A DNA stretch of 64,000 nucleotides from the NCBI GenBank assembly GCA_025454375.1, contig JALOOO010000002.1:1-64000 (forward strand), given 5' to 3'. Shown here in pieces: positions 17,951 to 44,477 of this stretch (its first letter is position 1; every line of letters begins with the position of its first letter). This DNA is from Leptolyngbya sp. Prado105 (GTDB lineage Bacteria > Cyanobacteriota > Cyanobacteriia > Leptolyngbyales > Leptolyngbyaceae). The translations under genes were made by a program, and so were the position numbers. The notes under the pieces are model-generated. The model saw only the letters and a list, made by a program, of their open reading frames with translations, did not search any database and was not told the DNA's origin.

Positions 17951-18155
17951 GCTGATTGACTGACAAAACGTGAGCGCCAATTGCATGACCCACCCGCGCG
18001 TAAACGGCGGGCTAAGGGAGGCAACTGTGCTAAAGCACACTCAGAAGAATTTTCAGCCCAGTTCAGTGGGGTTATTCTGTTAGCCCGCCGTTCACGTGCG
18101 GGCGGACGGGACAACGAAGTGAGGAGGCTTTCAGGAGTTTTGTCAGTCAATCAGC
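17951..18155. mobile_element. MITE-like element, copy 1 (205 bp)
   Basis: The element has perfect 19-bp terminal inverted repeats, GCTGATTGACTGACAAAAC and GTTTTGTCAGTCAATCAGC. Inner inverted arms are CCCGCGCGTAAACGGCGGGCTAA and TTAGCCCGCCGTTCACGTGCGGG. It is flanked by an 8-bp direct repeat TTCCGAGG (17943-17950 and 18156-18163), read as target duplication. It has no transposase or coding capacity. Copy 2 at 31828 is the same element in reverse orientation. Confidence 0.88.
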
Positions 18156-25004: not shown

Positions 25005-26180
25005 CTAGCTCCCCGTCGGCTCTAACCGAATCAATCGCCCATTCGAGGCATCCGTAAGAACATACAGCAATCCATCCGGTCCTTGGCGCACATCTCTCAC
25101 TCGCTGACCGATTTTAATCGACTGCTGGCTTTTAACATTTCCAGCCTGATCCAACTCAATACGCCGCACATCTTGAGACACTAAACCCCCGGCAAAGAGA
25201 TTTCCTCGCCAAGCAGGAAAGCGATCGCCTGTATAAAATGTCAGCCCAGACGGAGCCGTTGCAGGAGTCCAATAGGTTTTGGGACTTACGAATCCAGGAC
25301 GCGATCGCTCCTGTGAAATTTCACCGCCAAAGTACTCCTGACTATAAGTTACGATCGGCCATCCATAGTTCTTCCCTGCTTCAACGAGATTCAATTCATC
25401 TCCCCCACTCGCACCATGCTCGGTTGACCAAACTCTCTTCGTATTGGAATCAAACGTCAGTCCTTGAATATTGCGATGCCCATAGCTCCAGATCGCTGAA
25501 TCGGCATTCGGATTCGTCGCAAATGGATTGTCACGTGGAATCGAGCCATCATCATTCAACCGGACAATCTTACCCAAACGACTGCGAAGGTTTTGAGCTT
25601 GCTTGCGAATCAGATCACCTTCTAGCTCAACCGGAGGATTGCCCCCATCTCCGATCGCAACGAGCATCGTATTATCCGGCAGCCAAACAATGCGCGATCC
25701 AAAATGCTGTCCGCCTGATTTTGCTTGCGTGACTTCAAAAATTACTTTCAGATCCCGCAACGCCTTGCCATCAAAAGTTGCCCTCGCCAACCGAGTTCGA
25801 TTTGAATCCGGTGTACCGTGCGAATAGGTGAGATAAATCAATCGATTCTGAGCAAAACGAGGATGAATCGAGACATCCATTAATGCACCTTGCCCGGTTG
25901 ACATAACTTCAGGCACACCTGCGATCGCGTTTGGATCTAATTTGCCATTGCGGACAACTCGAAGCTGACCTGTTTTTTCAGTAATGAGCATTGTGCTATC
26001 GGGAAGCCATGCCATACTCCACGGACGAGCTAATCCCGTTAAGACTGTCGTTTGGCGAAATCCTTGAGGACTCGCAGCGACGGCTTCAGGCACAGGGGGC
26101 ACGGTACTAACCGTTGGGGAAGAACAAGACGCGATCGCAATTCCAAGACAAGTAATTCCTAAAATTGAACGGTTGAGCAT
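25005..26180 (-). CDS. PQQ-dependent sugar dehydrogenase-like lipoprotein (glucose/sorbosone dehydrogenase family)
   Basis: About 391 residues forming a six-bladed beta-propeller of the GSDH/YliI (aldose dehydrogenase) family, which oxidises sugars using PQQ in the periplasm. Signatures are GLARPWSMAWLPDSTMLITEKTGQLRVV, GQGALMDVSIHPRF, FGSRIVWLPDNTMLVAIGDGG, SYGHRNIQGLTF and TEHGASGGDELN. A lipoprotein signal (MLNRSILGITCLGIAIASC) supports export and anchoring. The track's longer start at 26222 would bury this signal, so ATG 26180 is used. PQQ synthesis genes are not in view, and some relatives act without PQQ. Confidence 0.85.
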   Translation of the reverse strand: MLNRSILGITCLGIAIASCSSPTVSTVPPVPEAVAASPQGFRQTTVLTGLARPWSMAWLPDSTMLITEKTGQLRVVRNGKLDPNAIAGVPEVMSTGQGALMDVSIHPRFAQNRLIYLTYSHGTPDSNRTRLARATFDGKALRDLKVIFEVTQAKSGGQHFGSRIVWLPDNTMLVAIGDGGNPPVELEGDLIRKQAQNLRSRLGKIVRLNDDGSIPRDNPFATNPNADSAIWSYGHRNIQGLTFDSNTKRVWSTEHGASGGDELNLVEAGKNYGWPIVTYSQEYFGGEISQERSRPGFVSPKTYWTPATAPSGLTFYTGDRFPAWRGNLFAGGLVSQDVRRIELDQAGNVKSQQSIKIGQRVRDVRQGPDGLLYVLTDASNGRLIRLEPTGS

Positions 26181-26225: not shown

Positions 26226-26639
26226 CTAACTGGGTGACAACGATCTGGGTGCAGAAGATCTAACCATGCGCTGCATTAAATGCTCTAGCACATTGTCTAA
26301 ATCCTGACACAGACCTGTATGGACTTTAGAGGTTTGAATGATTGTGCTTCTGGGTGCGACAAGCCAGTGAAATCGCTCTCGATGGGGCAATTGTCCGATC
26401 ACTCCAGCTTCTTTTCCCCCTTTGCAGATTAGGGGGATTACTGCGAGATGTTCTCGAATCATTTCCAGGTCTAAGCAGGGGTCGATCGCCAGTAATCGCG
26501 ATTCGTCTAGCTCAATTTGCGCTGCTAAAAATCGCTTGATGCCGCAAGAAACGATCGCCCCAACATTAATAAATTCTTCGCGCTCGACCTTGGGAACAAC
26601 GCGAATGATCGCATAATCATAAGTAAAGTGACTGGGCAC
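26226..26639 (-). CDS. DUF3037 protein
   Basis: 137 residues matching DUF3037 as I remember it: a YDYAIIRVVPKVEREEFINVGAIVSC start, LDLEMIREHLAVIP and the RFHWLVAPRSTIIQTS...HTGLC motif. No activity is known. DUF3037 is repeatedly found beside HipA-like kinases. Here the ORF overlaps the HipA-like gene by 23 bp, so the pair is translationally coupled and most likely works as a unit. Confidence 0.85.
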   Translation of the reverse strand: MPSHFTYDYAIIRVVPKVEREEFINVGAIVSCGIKRFLAAQIELDESRLLAIDPCLDLEMIREHLAVIPLICKGGKEAGVIGQLPHRERFHWLVAPRSTIIQTSKVHTGLCQDLDNVLEHLMQRMVRSSAPRSLSPS

Positions 26640-27396
26640 GAATCGCTTCCTCCAAAAACACCGATGAGTTTAACCGCTTGAGTAAATATTCAACATAAGC
26701 TTCACGATGCTGCTCTGGGTTAGAAAACGTAGTCCCTTCAACCAACCAGAGATCGGGAATCAGATCAATAACGTGACGGATTATATCGGGTGTAATGCGC
26801 GCCGTCATCTTGATATGAGCCGCTTCGAGTGTGGTTGCAAACCGCAGGAGGACGTGATCTTTAACCGCAGGAAAGCGATCTAAAGCTCGATCCAAATAGT
26901 TGCTCCAAGTGTGATGAAAGTACAGTGCAGCCCCATGATCAATCAGCCAGAGCTTGCGATGCCAAACGAGCATGTTGGCATTTCGAGCCGTTCGATCGGG
27001 ATTCGTCACATAAGCATCAAACCAAACAATTTCGGAGGCAAGTTCGGCTTCAGCGTTCCCGGCTACAGGGTCAAAAGTAATTGAACCCGGCAGATAGTCT
27101 AAGGCAAGATTTAGCCCTGCACTGGCTTTGATCAAGTCTTGAATTTCTGGATCGGGTTCGGTGCGGGCGAGATCCGGATCAAGTTCGATCAAGACAATTT
27201 CTGGAACAGGCAAGCCGACGACTCGCGCAAGTTCGCCTGCAATCAGTTCTGCAATCAGGGATTTTACACCCTGTCCTGCACCGCGAAATTTAAGCACATA
27301 CATGCCGTCGTCGTCCGCTTCTACGATCGCAGGCAGTGATCCCCCTTCTCGCAAAGGCGTAACGTATCTTGTCGCCGTAATCGATCGCAGTTCCAT
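26617..27396 (-). CDS. HipA-like kinase (HipA family, DUF3037-associated)
   Basis: About 259 residues with a protein-kinase-like HipA core: GSLPAIVEADDDGMYVLKFRGAGQG for nucleotide binding, ELIAGELARVVGLPVPE, the catalytic-type WFDAYVTNPDRTARNANML (D and N of the HipA active loop) and LWLIDHGAALYFHH with the metal-binding Asp. E. coli HipA phosphorylates GltX and causes persistence; this shorter form lacks the HipA N-terminal subdomain and no HipB-type DNA-binding partner is seen. The track's start at 27435 is long; ATG 27396 fits. It lies 19 bp after DUF928, so it may be the fourth gene of the CHAT operon. Confidence 0.82.
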   Translation of the reverse strand: MELRSITATRYVTPLREGGSLPAIVEADDDGMYVLKFRGAGQGVKSLIAELIAGELARVVGLPVPEIVLIELDPDLARTEPDPEIQDLIKASAGLNLALDYLPGSITFDPVAGNAEAELASEIVWFDAYVTNPDRTARNANMLVWHRKLWLIDHGAALYFHHTWSNYLDRALDRFPAVKDHVLLRFATTLEAAHIKMTARITPDIIRHVIDLIPDLWLVEGTTFSNPEQHREAYVEYLLKRLNSSVFLEEAIRAQSLYL

Positions 27397-27415
27397 AAGG
27401 TTTTGGCTTCGTTCT

Positions 27416-28195
27416 CTACCGAGTGAGCTTCTCAAGCTGACAACAGGGAGTGACGGTTGTCGCTGTCTTGCTTTCTAGTTTTTGTTGTTTGAGCAATTCA
27501 TTCCAGGCTTCTAAGGTAGATTTATCTTGAGTTGCGCGAATTTCTGTGCCTAAAGTTGTTAAAGCATCATACCAAATGCCGTATTTGGCATAGAGTTTTG
27601 CTCGATCGAGTGAAGTTTTAGCCCCTGCTAATCCTTGCTGTAATGCGGCAGTCGGGGCGACTCTCTGAATTCGACCTTTTCGGACTAGAGGTAAGTCAAG
27701 CGTGATTTCATCCTGACTCGTCGGATTATCGTTAGCGCTGCCACAATAGAGGGCTAAATCCCATTGATAGGTCGAAACCGCTAACGGGGCAACGCTGTTT
27801 GGAATTGCAAAACTCACTACGCCGGGATTGGTTTTTGGCAGTCGAGCGGTCGTGCGATAGATGACTTTATTGTTTGAATTGCGTAACTTCCATTCAACTA
27901 ACGTTCCAGCTTCGACTCCGGTTGGAATATTCACCCAGATTGTCGGTCGATCGCTCACTGTTAAGCCCCATTGATCATTTGATCGTGGAGAGGGAACTAA
28001 TACTTTTAAGCCTGGAAATTCTTGATCACAACCGCGAGCGCCTGCACCTGTTCCGCGATCGGAGGGTGTGCCTGTGTCGGGAGGCGGAGGCGGAGAAAAG
28101 CGAATTCGCGGCTGGGCATTTGCAAAATGAGAAGAGAGTGAGACAACTGTGAGCAATGAGAGACTGACTGCAATGTGAGAGAGTTTGAAATTCAT
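27416..28195 (-). CDS. DUF928 secreted protein
   Basis: 259 residues with a signal peptide (MNFKLSHIAVSLSLLTVVSL...ANAQ). The mature part has a Pro-rich segment (FSPPPPPDTGTPSDRGTGAG), a beta-sandwich-like domain (LTVSDRPTIWVNIP, VEWKLRN, TYQWDLALYCG with Cys) and a helical end (AALQQGLAGAKTSLDRAKLYAKYGIWYDALTTL). This matches DUF928, a cyanobacterial family often next to CHASE2/CHAT genes. Its start overlaps the CHAT-CHASE2 stop by 4 bp (ATGA type), which strongly suggests coupling. Probable periplasmic partner of the CHASE2 sensor part (inference). Confidence 0.82.
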   Translation of the reverse strand: MNFKLSHIAVSLSLLTVVSLSSHFANAQPRIRFSPPPPPDTGTPSDRGTGAGARGCDQEFPGLKVLVPSPRSNDQWGLTVSDRPTIWVNIPTGVEAGTLVEWKLRNSNNKVIYRTTARLPKTNPGVVSFAIPNSVAPLAVSTYQWDLALYCGSANDNPTSQDEITLDLPLVRKGRIQRVAPTAALQQGLAGAKTSLDRAKLYAKYGIWYDALTTLGTEIRATQDKSTLEAWNELLKQQKLESKTATTVTPCCQLEKLTR

Positions 28196-30522
28196 GATGG
28201 CTCCTTAAGAAGACGATAAGCAACTAATCCGCTATTGAGTAAAAATCCTAAAAATGCTGGGACTAAAGGAATCCAACCCCCTTGAGTCAAAGTCAGCCAG
28301 CACCCTCCAATCAGTAAGACAACACAGCTTGAACCGATGATTCCAATCCATTTCAATTGACGAAATCGCCAAATCAGTAAGCCTCCAAGTAATGTCCAAC
28401 TCCCAATCCAAAGAATCTCGATCGCGCTTGACCAAACCCACAACAATGGACGTTTATCTAAGACCGCACTGATGATCTGACTGACCATATGTGCCTGGAC
28501 GGTTACGCCCGGAAGTTGTTGCGGAAAGCCTTTGCCATAAGGAGTTGAGAAATAATCTTTGGTACTAGGAGCCGTCACACCGATTAGAACAATCCGATCT
28601 TTGATCGCACTGAGATTCATTTCTCCATTGAGCAATTGGCGGACGGTGACTTGTTGTGCAATTTCAGTCGGGGATTTTGTCGATCGATAGTTGAGTAAAA
28701 TCTGACTCCCGCGCGAATCAAATCGTTGATAGCCACTCGTTCGCTCTGTTAAGGCTGGGAAAATAGTCCCTCCAAGCTTCAAATGTTTGTCAGGGGTGAA
28801 CTCGGGCAAGATTGCAGCAGGTTGAGTGCCGAGATAGCGAAAAGCAAGCTGGAGATTGAGTGAATAAGGAGCAGCACAGGCTCCAACCTCATTCGCACTT
28901 GCAAAAAGCAAATGCCGCCGCAACACTCCGTCGCGATCTTGGACAACATCGCTAAATCCGATCGCGTCAGGACTGACTCCAGCAGGAGGTGCAATTCCCT
29001 TCGGATCATTCGCATCTGGATCAGGACGTTTGCAAATCGCGACGAGTTGAGCATTTTGCGCCATCTGTTCCATGCGCTTTTTTAAGCTCGGGCGCTGTGT
29101 GGGAAAGTCGCGGTAGAGGTCAAGTCCAACGACGCGAGCTTGATTGCGTTCGAGCGTTTCTAAGACTCGATCGAGGGTTTCATCTGACAAAGAGCCACCA
29201 TTTTGCGGCTGTCGCTGGATGTCTTCTTCTTCGACTTTGACAATCAGGAGTCGCGGATCACGCGGTTCGATCGGGCGATGCTGCATTAAGAGATCAAAGG
29301 CTTGCAGTTCTAGCGGTTGCATCGCTCCAAACCCGCGAATGCCCGTGATTAGGCTTGTGATTGCGAGCGTGCTAAGCGCGATCGTTTGCAACTGCGATCG
29401 CGACATGGGAGGCAAAAGCGGACGTTTCTGACCGCACCAATCTTGCCAGGTGGGAGGGATTTCTGCTGGATTTTGGCAAATGACTGGGAGCCAAGTCGCG
29501 CAAGGAAAATTTGATTCTAATGCTTGCAGTTTCTCTCTGGCTTCTCGCACTGAACCATACAGTGATTGTCCATTCGAGAACGCATGTAGAAATGATTTGA
29601 GAAATTCTTGAGCAATCTGATCGCTCACAGGCTCACGCATCACAATCACCTGCGGGATCTGCAAATCTGCTAAATCTTGAGCGAGTCCTAACCCATCACA
29701 AGAGTTAAAAATTGCAAGCTTCAGACCTTTAGAAATCGCATGGCGCAAACTATACTTTAATTGCTCGATCGTTAAGGTTTCGCTCTGATTGATTTGAATG
29801 TAGCCTTTGACATCTGTAGAACTATGTCCTGCAAAAAATAGCACATCCCAATCGGATTGCCAGAGCTTATCTTGTAATGCTTGTGGGGTTGGCTCGACGA
29901 GGAAATGTACTTCTGCATTGGGTAACTTTTGCAGTAATTGACGATCGCGCTCGATATCAATGCCTTGAGAATTGCCAAGAATGCTGAGAATTCGGACTTT
30001 CTTACGGCGATTTGAACTCGGCAATTGCAGCGATCGGGCAAATTCTGGCAAGCTCAAAGCAATTTCCGCATGAGGATAGTCAGAGAGAAAATCCCATAAG
30101 CTCCAGGGCAATTGCAGAATTTGTCGATCGTTGGCAACTACGATGAGACGAATCGAATCTTTGGGCGAAAGGCGGGTGCGAAGTTGTCGATCGATTGCCC
30201 GAAAGGAGCTTGCACTGAGCCAGAGGTTGAACTGACTCTGTACCTCTCGTGAAAGTTGATGAAATTCTGCAATGGAAATATGGGTTGGCTCGTCATCGTC
30301 GAGTTCAAATTCCGCAGCACGGCGCAAACCCAGATGAGCATAGAGCGCAGTATAGATTGAACGCCAACGAGTTAAGCGATCGCATAGGGTCGGAATCGCA
30401 GGTAAGCCGCCTGTAAACTGCATGGGAGTCGATCGCCCAACTTCCCACAGTTGAGCAATCACTGTCGGAAATCCATCTTTCCAATTCCCTTGCCCTAGAT
30501 TGAGAACAATTAGATGATCCAT
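28192..30522 (-). CDS. CHAT-CHASE2 membrane protein (caspase-like protease plus extracytoplasmic sensor)
   Basis: 776 residues. The N-terminal half is a CHAT (caspase HetF-associated with TPR) domain with catalytic His233 in LFFAGHSS and Cys275 in IFNSCDGLGLA. A transmembrane helix follows at about 375-395, then a CHASE2 sensory domain outside the membrane (AFDLLMQHRP, RLLIVKVEEEDI, VVGLDLYRDFP, VVQDRDGVLRRHLLF, RIVLIGVTAPSTKDYF). It ends with about three transmembrane helices. A signal read outside could thus control a protease facing the cytoplasm. It lies between DUF1822 (13 bp gap) and DUF928 (4 bp overlap), a conserved cyanobacterial set. The ligand and cleavage target are unknown. Confidence 0.9.
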   Translation of the reverse strand: MDHLIVLNLGQGNWKDGFPTVIAQLWEVGRSTPMQFTGGLPAIPTLCDRLTRWRSIYTALYAHLGLRRAAEFELDDDEPTHISIAEFHQLSREVQSQFNLWLSASSFRAIDRQLRTRLSPKDSIRLIVVANDRQILQLPWSLWDFLSDYPHAEIALSLPEFARSLQLPSSNRRKKVRILSILGNSQGIDIERDRQLLQKLPNAEVHFLVEPTPQALQDKLWQSDWDVLFFAGHSSTDVKGYIQINQSETLTIEQLKYSLRHAISKGLKLAIFNSCDGLGLAQDLADLQIPQVIVMREPVSDQIAQEFLKSFLHAFSNGQSLYGSVREAREKLQALESNFPCATWLPVICQNPAEIPPTWQDWCGQKRPLLPPMSRSQLQTIALSTLAITSLITGIRGFGAMQPLELQAFDLLMQHRPIEPRDPRLLIVKVEEEDIQRQPQNGGSLSDETLDRVLETLERNQARVVGLDLYRDFPTQRPSLKKRMEQMAQNAQLVAICKRPDPDANDPKGIAPPAGVSPDAIGFSDVVQDRDGVLRRHLLFASANEVGACAAPYSLNLQLAFRYLGTQPAAILPEFTPDKHLKLGGTIFPALTERTSGYQRFDSRGSQILLNYRSTKSPTEIAQQVTVRQLLNGEMNLSAIKDRIVLIGVTAPSTKDYFSTPYGKGFPQQLPGVTVQAHMVSQIISAVLDKRPLLWVWSSAIEILWIGSWTLLGGLLIWRFRQLKWIGIIGSSCVVLLIGGCWLTLTQGGWIPLVPAFLGFLLNSGLVAYRLLKEPS

Positions 30523-30535
30523 TGCTTCGTCTCAC

Positions 30536-31660
30536 CTAAGCTAGAAAGTTTTCTGTGAGTTGATCGGCATCAAATGCAATCTGCACCCTAAATTCAGTCC
30601 CTGTCGAGCAGCGGAAGCGCCGAAGCTGAATCAAATTATCTTGCTCTCGTGCTTCAACCGCTTGCACGATGTCTCCTGCACTCGAAAGCATGGTGAGCAT
30701 TAATCCACTGGGCAAAATGCCATCCCGCTCTGCCGATCGCAGTTGCACTCGAACGGATAAGCGATCGTTGTCTTCTTGCTCTAACACAACCGATAGCCAG
30801 AGGGTCTGTTCTCCGAGTTCTAAGACTTTGACTCGCTGAATCGAATTTTGCTCAAGCGTTTGGCGGAAGCTATAGGCGAGAGAAGGCTCGTTCCCCAGTA
30901 AGCTTTCTAAGGTTTGCCAACCTTCTGCGATCGTATTCTGGAACCACTGACTGAGCGACTCGGTTCTAGAACCGAGTCGCAATTGCCCAAGTTGATTCAG
31001 CCATTGGGATTGCTCAAGTAATGCGCCCCAGAGTTGAAACGGGATTTCTAAGCGAGGTTGGAGAACTTCGGGATTGGCTAAGCGTTGCAGAAGATTGTCA
31101 GCCTGAGTTGCAGGAACAGGCGCAAGAGAAGCAATTTCGGCACGAGTTACAGCTTCAGGAGCCACTTCTCGCGTCACTGTAAAGACGGCAAAATCTTGAA
31201 TCATCTGTTCTGCTGCTAGGGTATAAGTCCGATCGTCGGAATCATACTGAGCGAAAGCTTTTAGCTGAGCATGAGTGGTGTATCCCCAAATTAAAATTGA
31301 AGCATCGTCGGGGTTCACCTGTGCTGCAAAATAGTAGTCTCCTGCCCAGCTTGGAATATCTACCCACTCCTGCGGTACTTTCAATTCGCTTGTGTCGATC
31401 GTTTTATCTGGAATCAAAATGACTCGATGCGCTCCCAGCGTAAACGGGGTTCCCGTGACCAATTGCCAGAGATTTTGTAAGGCTGTTTGCTCCAGAGTTT
31501 CGCTGTCTTGCAGCCAGGTGAGAACGGGCTGAAGGCAAACTTGATTAAGATAGGTATTCCAGCGAGCGGGAGCAAAGCGCGATCGATTTTGCCAAGCGCT
31601 AAGATTAGACTGCGGCGAAATCTCTAGACAGGGTTGGGTTGGAACATTGAGGTAAGACAT
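30536..31660 (-). CDS. DUF1822 protein
   Basis: 374 residues with no signal peptide, fitting DUF1822, a cyanobacterial family of unknown function found beside CHAT/CHASE2 proteins. Visible family features are the LSAWQNRSRFAPARWNTYLNQVCL start, VILIPDKTIDTSELKVPQEWVDIPSWAGDYYFAAQVNPD and the WGYTTHAQLK stretch. The C-terminal part (VKVLELGEQTLWLSVVLEQED, VRVQLRSAER, LPSGLMLTMLSSAGDIVQAVEAR) is beta-rich. It is the first gene of the tight five-gene run and probably a cytoplasmic partner or substrate of the CHAT protease (inference from conserved neighbourhood). Confidence 0.83.
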   Translation of the reverse strand: MSYLNVPTQPCLEISPQSNLSAWQNRSRFAPARWNTYLNQVCLQPVLTWLQDSETLEQTALQNLWQLVTGTPFTLGAHRVILIPDKTIDTSELKVPQEWVDIPSWAGDYYFAAQVNPDDASILIWGYTTHAQLKAFAQYDSDDRTYTLAAEQMIQDFAVFTVTREVAPEAVTRAEIASLAPVPATQADNLLQRLANPEVLQPRLEIPFQLWGALLEQSQWLNQLGQLRLGSRTESLSQWFQNTIAEGWQTLESLLGNEPSLAYSFRQTLEQNSIQRVKVLELGEQTLWLSVVLEQEDNDRLSVRVQLRSAERDGILPSGLMLTMLSSAGDIVQAVEAREQDNLIQLRRFRCSTGTEFRVQIAFDADQLTENFLA

Positions 31661-31827
31661 AAGAATAAAGGTTTGGAGTGCGCGATGAATCTATTCACGA
31701 TGGAAATTTTGAACTTATGCAGATCATTCAGTAAAATGGTAACTTTGCCAAATAAAAGAAATTGAGCCATTGCGACACTAAACTAGAAGCGAAACATTGC
31801 ACGAACAGCAACCTGATGGTTTTACTC

Positions 31828-32031
31828 CTGATTGACTGACAAAACTCGTGAAGCTCCCTCCGCTACGTTGCCATTCCACCCGCGCGTGAACGGCGGGCTA
31901 ACAGAAATAACCCCACTCAACTGGGCTAAAAACATTCCTGAGTATGCTTCAGCATAGTTTCCTCAATTAGCCCGCCGTTCACGTGCGGGCGGGATACGCA
32001 ATCACGAAGAGATTTGTTCAGTCAACAATGA
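31828..32031. mobile_element. MITE-like element, copy 2 (204 bp, inverted)
   Basis: Read on the minus strand this is the same element as copy 1, with closely similar interior (AGCCCAGTTgAGTGGGGTTATT, GTTAGCCCGCCGTTCACG). The left terminal repeat CTGATTGACTGACAAAAC is intact; the right one (TTTGTTCAGTCAACAATGA) has decayed. Flanking octamers TTTTACTC (31820) and TTCTACTC (32032) match in 7 of 8 places. It lies between the CHAT lipoprotein gene and DUF1822. The rest of the 31661-32046 gap holds nothing I recognise. Confidence 0.82.
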
Positions 32032-32046
32032 TTCTACTCACACAGA

Positions 32047-33396
32047 TCACCAAGGATTGCCAATTAGCGTAAACGCTGCCCAGTGATAAGGATGCGCCAA
32101 ATTCTGATCGGCTAAGGCTCTCACCTCTTCGGGGAAGCGTCGATCGCGAACTTGCGCCCGAATGCGATCGGAATTGCGAATCATCTCAAGCTGCGCCTCT
32201 CTCAACGCATCCGCTTTCATTGGAGCCGATTTTAATGCTCGATAAAACTCCTTCATCAGCATCAAAGTACTGGCATCACCCACCGACCAGAGCGACGCGA
32301 TCGCGGCTTTACTACCCGCCTTTACCGCCAATCCGGCAAATCCCATTTCTGCTTTCGTATCTCCTAATGCAGTCCGGCAAGCACTGAGAACTAACAATTG
32401 CACAGGCGGATTCTGCAAGCCCAACTCCTGAAGCTGACCCAATTTCAACTGCTGATCCCAGAATTGGATATAAGACTGATTCACATCGCCTGATGTGAAT
32501 TCTGCATGAGTTGCTAAATGCACAATGCCGTAAGGCGTTTTCTGCCGATGCGCGACCAGATTCTTCAGTGTGAATTCTTGATTGAGCAAAGATGTCCCTT
32601 GCCAGGGCGTTTGGGTAATCGACGAAATCTCTAACGGAACTCCTGGCAGCGGCGGCTTATTGCTAAACGTCGAAGCTCCCATCGCGAGAATCTCAGTATT
32701 AGCAGAAGTGCGCGATTGTCGATCGAGCAAATTAAAGGCAGGAATAATCGCCAGATTGTACTTTTCAATTAAAAACTTTTGTCCATCGTGCAAAGCTGCT
32801 AACGGTAAGCTTCGTAACCCACTCCCTAAGCAAAAAATAATTTGATTGATTCCTTCAGCTTGAAGTTGCGCCTCTAGGGGTGTGATGATCCAGCGATAAA
32901 GTTGCTGTCCGGGGACTAAGTAATCATCAGGATCAGAATCGTCTCGCACAACACCCATCCGAAAAGCTCGAATTCGTTGATTCAGCGCAGGTCGATTGGC
33001 AGCAGTAATGCGACGATGAATCGGCTGACCCTGAGCCGTGACCAACATCAAATCTAAATGCTTCGCACCCGGAATCGCATAGAATAAAGCCGATTTTCTC
33101 CCGGTGCGCTGATTGATCTGCGCTAAGGATTGAGCAATCTCCGCAGCAGGCAAGACTTGAGTTGTAAACTTCCCTTGAAAGTAGTCTTCGTATTGTTTTT
33201 TCCAGCGTAGTTCAATTTGGCGAACCGCTTCAGCGACATCTGAGCGATCGAGGGCTTGAGCCACAAGATCTGGAGCAGGCTTAACAAGAGGCGCTTGAGC
33301 GACTGCAAGATTGGGCGAGACATTGGAACGCGAACATCCAACTGTAATCAGAAACGCAATCAAGACAATCGGCAGGAACCATTGCGGGTATTTCAT
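32047..33396 (-). CDS. Exported CHAT-domain lipoprotein
   Basis: 449 residues. The N-terminus (MKYPQWFLPIVLIAFLITVGC) is a lipoprotein-type signal with Cys21, although Thr at -3 is not ideal. A helical linker follows, then a CHAT protease domain from about residue 165 (LYRWIITPLEAQLQ, LRSLPLAALHDGQKFLIEKYNLAIIPA) with catalytic His297 in VHLATHAEF and Cys340 in LSACRTALGD. Both dyad residues are present, so activity is likely. It would act outside the cytoplasm, unlike the CHAT part of the neighbouring CHASE2 protein. A MITE separates it from the DUF1822 operon on the same strand. Confidence 0.85.
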   Translation of the reverse strand: MKYPQWFLPIVLIAFLITVGCSRSNVSPNLAVAQAPLVKPAPDLVAQALDRSDVAEAVRQIELRWKKQYEDYFQGKFTTQVLPAAEIAQSLAQINQRTGRKSALFYAIPGAKHLDLMLVTAQGQPIHRRITAANRPALNQRIRAFRMGVVRDDSDPDDYLVPGQQLYRWIITPLEAQLQAEGINQIIFCLGSGLRSLPLAALHDGQKFLIEKYNLAIIPAFNLLDRQSRTSANTEILAMGASTFSNKPPLPGVPLEISSITQTPWQGTSLLNQEFTLKNLVAHRQKTPYGIVHLATHAEFTSGDVNQSYIQFWDQQLKLGQLQELGLQNPPVQLLVLSACRTALGDTKAEMGFAGLAVKAGSKAAIASLWSVGDASTLMLMKEFYRALKSAPMKADALREAQLEMIRNSDRIRAQVRDRRFPEEVRALADQNLAHPYHWAAFTLIGNPW

Positions 33397-43322: not shown

Positions 43323-44477
43323 TCACGAATAATGCTTCTGTAACCATTCTTCCAAAACTAGACCCATACTCTTAATCACTTCTGGGTCAGTTTCAGGATT
43401 GATCGCTTGACTCCATCGCACTAATTTCAACAGTAATGTCTCGCGCGCTTTCGATAACTTTCGGGATACTGTGTACTGCTGCACCTCAAGCTGTTTCGCA
43501 ATCTGCTGCTGAGTGAGTTGTTGCTGATAATAAAGCTGTAACAGTTGTTGCACAGACGTATCGAATTCGGCGATCGCAGTTTCCAACACCTGATTCAAGC
43601 GCGATCGCTGATCCAATCTTTCCTGTTGTTCTTCCTGCTCGATCAATTCTGCTAAGAGTGAATTTCTTGAATCTGTTACATCATCTTGCAATTCGCCCTC
43701 ATCTTGTCCAATTTTCGGTGCATTCAATGAACCGACCGACGGAAAAGACTGCTCTCTTGCTCGATTTGCACAATCAGTAAGCCAGCGCTCCAAAGTTGCA
43801 GGACTGACTGTTTCGCCTGTTGCTTTTGTATATTGCGTTGCGATCGCGCTCCAAACTTCTGCACTCGGAGCGTTACTTTGTCTCATTCCTAGCGTTTTTG
43901 CTGGAACATAACACAATTCAAAACATTTCCAAGCCGTGAGATATTGCTCGATCGTCTGGGGAGTTAATCCTTGCAAAACTTCGATCACTCGTTTTCGGCT
44001 GAGCTTTAAAAGCAAGCCCCAATGACTACATAAATCAATTTCACGTTTCTGGCGTAACCAATCGCGAACCACGTTACCAAAAGCAGAACTGGCATAAGTC
44101 TTAAGGCTTGCTCGTTCGTCTGGATCGCAGGCTTTGAGAATTTTGGGAACGGATGCGATCGCAACTTGAAACAGATCGGCAAGCTGAAATTGGATCGATT
44201 GCGTTTTGGGCACAACCTTCTGCACACTCCAGTAGCAAGCTTCTTGCAAGTAAGCTGAGATATGTCCTGTCGCAAGAGCCTGACGAGTTTCGTCTTTTAT
44301 CCAAGCCCGATGCCAGTACATGACCCAAAAGCGATCGGCAGTTTCTTCGGGCGTTTGTGCGAGATGCTGCTGAATGCTGCGATGCAATCTCGAATCCCGA
44401 ATCCAACTGGTGACTTGATCTGATTCAAATCGCAAAAAAGTTGAAAATAGTTCGGGAATGCTTTGACGGACACGCAT
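43323..44477 (-). CDS. Divergent sigma-70-like factor
   Basis: 384 residues. The C-terminus holds a sigma region-4 helix-turn-helix (LTQQQIAKQLEVQQYTVSRKLSKARETLLLKL) preceded by QLLQLYYQQQ, and the middle has a region-2-like block (LKTYASSAFGNVVRDWLRQKR). The N-terminal third is not like ordinary ECF factors (which are about 190 residues), and a long Glu/Gln-rich linker separates the parts. This resembles cyanobacterial group 3 or unclassified sigma-like regulators; it might also be a non-sigma transcription factor. The regulon is unknown. Divergent from a methyltransferase gene. Confidence 0.7.
   Translation of the reverse strand: MRVRQSIPELFSTFLRFESDQVTSWIRDSRLHRSIQQHLAQTPEETADRFWVMYWHRAWIKDETRQALATGHISAYLQEACYWSVQKVVPKTQSIQFQLADLFQVAIASVPKILKACDPDERASLKTYASSAFGNVVRDWLRQKREIDLCSHWGLLLKLSRKRVIEVLQGLTPQTIEQYLTAWKCFELCYVPAKTLGMRQSNAPSAEVWSAIATQYTKATGETVSPATLERWLTDCANRAREQSFPSVGSLNAPKIGQDEGELQDDVTDSRNSLLAELIEQEEQQERLDQRSRLNQVLETAIAEFDTSVQQLLQLYYQQQLTQQQIAKQLEVQQYTVSRKLSKARETLLLKLVRWSQAINPETDPEVIKSMGLVLEEWLQKHYS

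Follow-up and report, generated by a model that had tools for sequence, protein, structure and literature searches.

The five genes at 26226-31660 of the 64,000-nucleotide stretch of Leptolyngbya sp. Prado105 DNA analysed in the present study (the window) are best explained as two separate modules lying side by side, in which a HipA_2-DUF3037 pair of a known type has been joined once to an older stress-signalling cassette, and we regard this explanation as probable. The pair and the cassette are independent of each other, the five genes do not make up a conserved system, and the two were joined in one event confined to this lineage. The parts are of known kinds. In an ORF check of the window, all five genes were found on the minus strand; they are given below with the neighbouring features.

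25005..26180, minus strand: GSDH (glucose/sorbosone dehydrogenase; PF07995, 5e-131), 45 bp behind DUF3037
26226..26639, minus strand: DUF3037 protein, 137 aa, GTG start, 23-bp overlap with the kinase gene
26617..27396, minus strand: HipA_2 kinase, 259 aa, ATG start
27416..28195, minus strand: DUF928 protein, 259 aa, N-terminus resembling a signal peptide
28192..30522, minus strand: CHAT-CHASE2, 776 aa, CHAT protease and CHASE2 sensor domain, C-terminal membrane segments
30536..31660, minus strand: DUF1822 protein, 374 aa, 13 bp upstream of CHAT-CHASE2
31827..32025, no strand: MITE-like repeat, an inverted repeat
32047..33396, minus strand: second CHAT protease, 449 aa, upstream cluster member
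43323..44477, minus strand: sigma-70-like gene (PF04545, 3.8e-6), in the window some 10 kb away from the cluster

The gene identities proposed in an earlier, sequence-only reading of this DNA were confirmed by Pfam for all five genes, with matches well above cut-off for DUF1822 (PF08852, 5.3e-85), CHAT-CHASE2 (PF05226, 1e-64, and PF12770, 2e-18), DUF928 (PF06051, 2.1e-40), the HipA_2 kinase (PF20613, 1.3e-23) and DUF3037 (PF11236, 1.9e-44); the second CHAT protein matched PF12770 (1.7e-68). NCBIfam returned nothing useful for the window proteins, and the signal peptide of DUF928 was judged by eye from the sequence. The spacings of 13, -4, 19 and -23 bp from DUF1822 to DUF3037, given in the same reading, are also correct; the 19-bp gap follows from the kinase start that was adopted, the ATG at 27396, and the longest TTG ORF of the kinase extends to 27435. 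The limits of the operon need to be revised, as the same-strand run is longer than five genes and the upstream CHAT and downstream GSDH genes belong to the same gene string. The gap between CHAT and DUF1822 is 386 bp in the window versus 63 bp in the genome of a congener (G017), owing to a multicopy MITE-like element in the former. Thus, singling out five genes from a string of seven is arbitrary. The element, about 200 bp long with near-palindromic arms, has 71 matches in the window's genome, of which approximately 15 cover most of its length at 80-88% identity, and a further copy lies near 17980-18154. An assembly artefact behind the join was considered and ruled out, since all seven genes recur in G017 in an identical order.

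Comparison with other genomes revealed how rarely the two modules meet. HipA_2 is present in 15 of the 42 genomes of the order and in 12 of 386 genomes sampled across the phylum, and among the order's genomes the pair lies behind DUF928 only in the window's genome (G000) and in G017, which bears out the earlier impression that the joining of HipA-DUF3037 to the CHAT set is unusual. Of 365 relatives in the genome collection, the best 80 were examined; DUF3037 was located directly behind the kinase in all 80, and DUF928, CHAT-CHASE2 and DUF1822 were observed in none within 6 kb on either side of the pair, some of these loci ending early at contig ends. The cassette loci of 17 other genomes of the order have no pair beside them; one of these loci (G004) ends 0.2 kb behind DUF928 and is little informative, leaving 16 genomes that count as carrying the cassette without the pair. 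In G020 and G021, CHAT-CHASE2 is 74% identical and the kinase lies on another contig, and the pair was found in several other contexts in cyanobacteria. The GSDH gene also lies elsewhere in G018-G022, indicating that the pair gained both of its present neighbours in this lineage. The DUF928-HipA junction, for which a check of conservation had been suggested, is kept in G017 and absent from the other cassette loci read.

In the tree, the kinases of the genus fall into a single clade (97/81), in which those of the window and G017 are sisters (100/98), and the genus kinases of this clade occupy three genomic contexts. For the seven genes from CHAT to GSDH, the comparison of the window with G017 using the Nei-Gojobori method gave dS values of 0.9-1.6, near saturation, and w values of 0.07-0.17; these like dS and low w values indicate joint inheritance of the whole block, and the w of 0.08 obtained for the HipA_2 kinase shows that this gene is under purifying selection. 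At the DUF928-HipA junction, no signal was found by a promoter and terminator scan, which is informative solely for this absence, as its counts overall were at or below those of shuffles. By-eye comparison of the 120 bp upstream of the kinase revealed no motif common to the window and its relatives, and thus no retained kinase promoter was seen. The absence of promoter or terminator signals between the modules makes co-transcription plausible, so that, judging from the sequence, the pair and the cassette may share one transcript in the two species. The sequence-only reading had named two observations that would speak against a linked unit: a promoter or terminator between DUF928 and HipA, of which there is no signal, and independent movement of the pair, which was observed, all of the best 80 of 365 loci standing without the CHAT set.

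Several tested systems resemble the pair. The kinase matched PDC-M66A (1.1e-26) and DUF3037 matched PDC-M66B (1.5e-10) in PADLOC, the latter over residues 3-131 only, the N-terminal half of the 281-position model, and no second Pfam domain was detected in the DUF3037 protein of the window. The arrangement of a HipA_2 gene with a DUF3037 gene that overlaps or abuts its end is likewise found in PDC-M66, in DS-6, renamed HipAD, and in the Retron-Sda1 pair, and DUF3037 has been described as strongly associated with HipA-like proteins (PMC12548924). Removal of the kinase from the Retron-Sda1 pair resulted in the loss of defence, and removal of DUF3037 resulted in toxicity (PMC12548924); changing a predicted catalytic residue in the kinase abolished the defence provided by DS-6/HipAD (PMC13092281). 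The DS-6/HipAD partner combines DUF3037 with a C-terminal extension, DUF1829 (PMC13092281), whereas the 137-aa DUF3037 of the window has none; as PADLOC does not require the extension, its absence excludes the DS-6 form and not the wider pair. The Pfam families of the pair also occur in an E. coli phage record annotated as HipA toxin and HipD antitoxin, the proteins of which are 29% and 20% identical to those of the window over the aligned parts, with a partner of 275 aa; the window's pair is a compact relative. Classical HipBA appears to have the HipA-type kinase fold in common with the window, as the predicted kinase structure (pLDDT 87) matches CtkA and Shewanella HipA, but the window has no helix-turn-helix partner of the HipB type, and the DUF3037 model (pLDDT 90) had no fold match in the PDB (best E 1.8). 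Sequence searches of the PDB with the kinase and with DUF3037 revealed no relative, and a survey of the HipA family makes no mention of DUF domains (PMC8262856).

The kinase residues K36, D134, N139 and D153, assigned to HipA motifs by eye, are invariant in 40 of 40 sequences. A GGAGG-like ribosome-binding site inside the kinase gene and the 23-bp overlap are kept in relatives, with the same overlap offset in 61 of the best 80 of 365 in the genome collection, and the overlap was also observed on a Bacteroides plasmid. In G011 (L031 2321-3460) the kinase is frameshifted and DUF3037 is open, and on plasmid p1 of L. boryana (L221 3965-4637) only approximately the last 75 kinase residues are left, again with an open DUF3037; a broken kinase with an open DUF3037 in two genomes is as expected if the kinase is a toxin. 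Among the few cases available, each compact-type kinase was accompanied by DUF3037, and a distant kinase in G031 (35% identity) has no DUF3037 match. By analogy with the tested relatives, HipA_2 is a probable toxin and DUF3037 a probable antitoxin. As a test for a defence island, ten neighbours picked by hand were scanned once with PADLOC and without controls; the resulting matches, to generic kinases and helicases, were not counted. The compact kinase is 63-78% identical across cyanobacteria, Pseudomonadota, Acidobacteriota and others (L119-L198), a value unusually high for a toxin, and most of these cross-phylum relatives have the same 23-bp overlap.

DUF1822, CHAT-CHASE2 and DUF928 are part of a cyanobacterial cluster to which one more CHAT gene and a sigma-70-like gene belong in relatives, where CHAT is commonly followed by a protein of 386-505 residues and then by DUF1822, CHAT-CHASE2 and DUF928. 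Two of these 386-505-residue proteins were scanned, and both matched sigma-70 regions. The sigma-like gene adjoins DUF1822 in G020 and G021, and in the window and in G017 (approximately 6 kb upstream) it lies outside the cluster. The earlier statement that CHAT, CHASE2, DUF1822 and DUF928 form a known neighbourhood is consistent with this clustering and with the reported caspase-domain neighbourhoods of EACC2 systems, which contain an ECF sigma factor and DUF1822, some with CHASE2 (PMC8195603). The likeness to EACC2 systems is one of gene content and lies in the caspase-like protein with CHASE2, the DUF1822 and the sigma-like gene clustered in relatives, and the window and G017 differ from them in the outlying position of the sigma-like gene. 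The CHAT dyad of His and Cys (FAGHSS, NSCDG) is kept in 20 of 20 relatives. Hydrophobic stretches of CHAT-CHASE2 are located at residues 723-744 and 750-768, and no Pfam family matched roughly its first 110 residues. The CHAT cassette was found on plasmids as partial matches only. In addition, 13 places in the window's genome resemble CHAT-CHASE2, indicating that sensors of this type are multicopy in this genome.

Herein, we propose how the two modules might operate. The cassette, consisting of CHAT, DUF1822, CHAT-CHASE2, DUF928 and the sigma-70-like gene now about 10 kb off, would serve in membrane signalling, with CHASE2 sensing outside the cytoplasm and the CHAT protease acting inside. Its output would probably be altered transcription via the sigma-like factor, and DUF1822 might be an adaptor or an anti-sigma factor. 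Based on the tested relatives, the kinase would phosphorylate a component of the cell, resulting in growth arrest; DUF3037, produced from the overlapping gene, would bind and restrain the kinase, and phage infection or stress would release it. As the tested HipAD partners carry the extension that the DUF3037 of the window lacks, the compact form may work differently. Through a rearrangement in the ancestor shared by the window's species and G017, the pair would have come to follow DUF928, and the cassette promoter probably drives it there.

The sequence-only reading had instead suggested that the five genes could be one stress or cell-death switch. Spelled out, such a model would have CHASE2 activate CHAT, and the cleavage of DUF3037 or another partner by CHAT would free the kinase. 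The tight spacing, the lack of terminator or promoter signals between the modules, the intact CHAT dyad and kinase residues and the retention of the join in two species under purifying selection would all suit such a switch, which we nevertheless consider very unlikely, since there was one joining event only, the pair and the cassette are apart in all other relatives read, the kinase has its own partner everywhere, and the neighbouring GSDH was joined in the same lineage with no evident link. As one conserved switch, this reading found no support in the comparison. The two species have retained the join since they split (dS approximately 1), and it could be useful as a unit, a point against the two-module explanation. 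It is conceivable, though highly improbable in our judgement, that the cassette of these two species captured the pair as a new effector, in which case envelope stress perceived by CHASE2 would raise or free the kinase, either via co-transcription or via the cutting of DUF3037 by CHAT; a switch from a caspase-like protease to a toxin-antitoxin pair would then have evolved once.

A different doubt concerns the pair itself, which might consist of a conserved kinase with a housekeeping role and the regulator of that kinase, placed here by happenstance, rather than a defence or toxin-antitoxin system. The patchy presence in the order and the phylum, the changing contexts and spread over distant phyla, the decay of the kinase while DUF3037 stays, and the defence of tested relatives against phage make this unlikely, despite the mostly ordinary metabolic neighbours, the few plasmid records, none above 60% identity, and the phage matches, which are distant only, with no match in viral contigs. 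The identity of the compact kinase across phyla (65-78%) and its low w (0.08) also favour a housekeeping role, and such conservation, as judged from sequence comparison, would argue against the toxin reading.

Thus, the tempting claim of a protease-kinase death switch is replaced by the explanation of two separate modules, each of which is testable. No tests of the compact HipA-DUF3037 form were found in the literature, and this pair, with an overlap kept across phyla and without the DNA-binding extension, could reveal whether the antitoxin is the DUF3037 domain by itself. G017 also has a second DUF3037, and the 3,354-bp stretch surrounding it is identical to part of an L. boryana plasmid, suggesting that G017 is Leptolyngbya boryana or very close to it; as the arrangement in G017 is the same as that in the window, a cultured strain carrying the join should exist.
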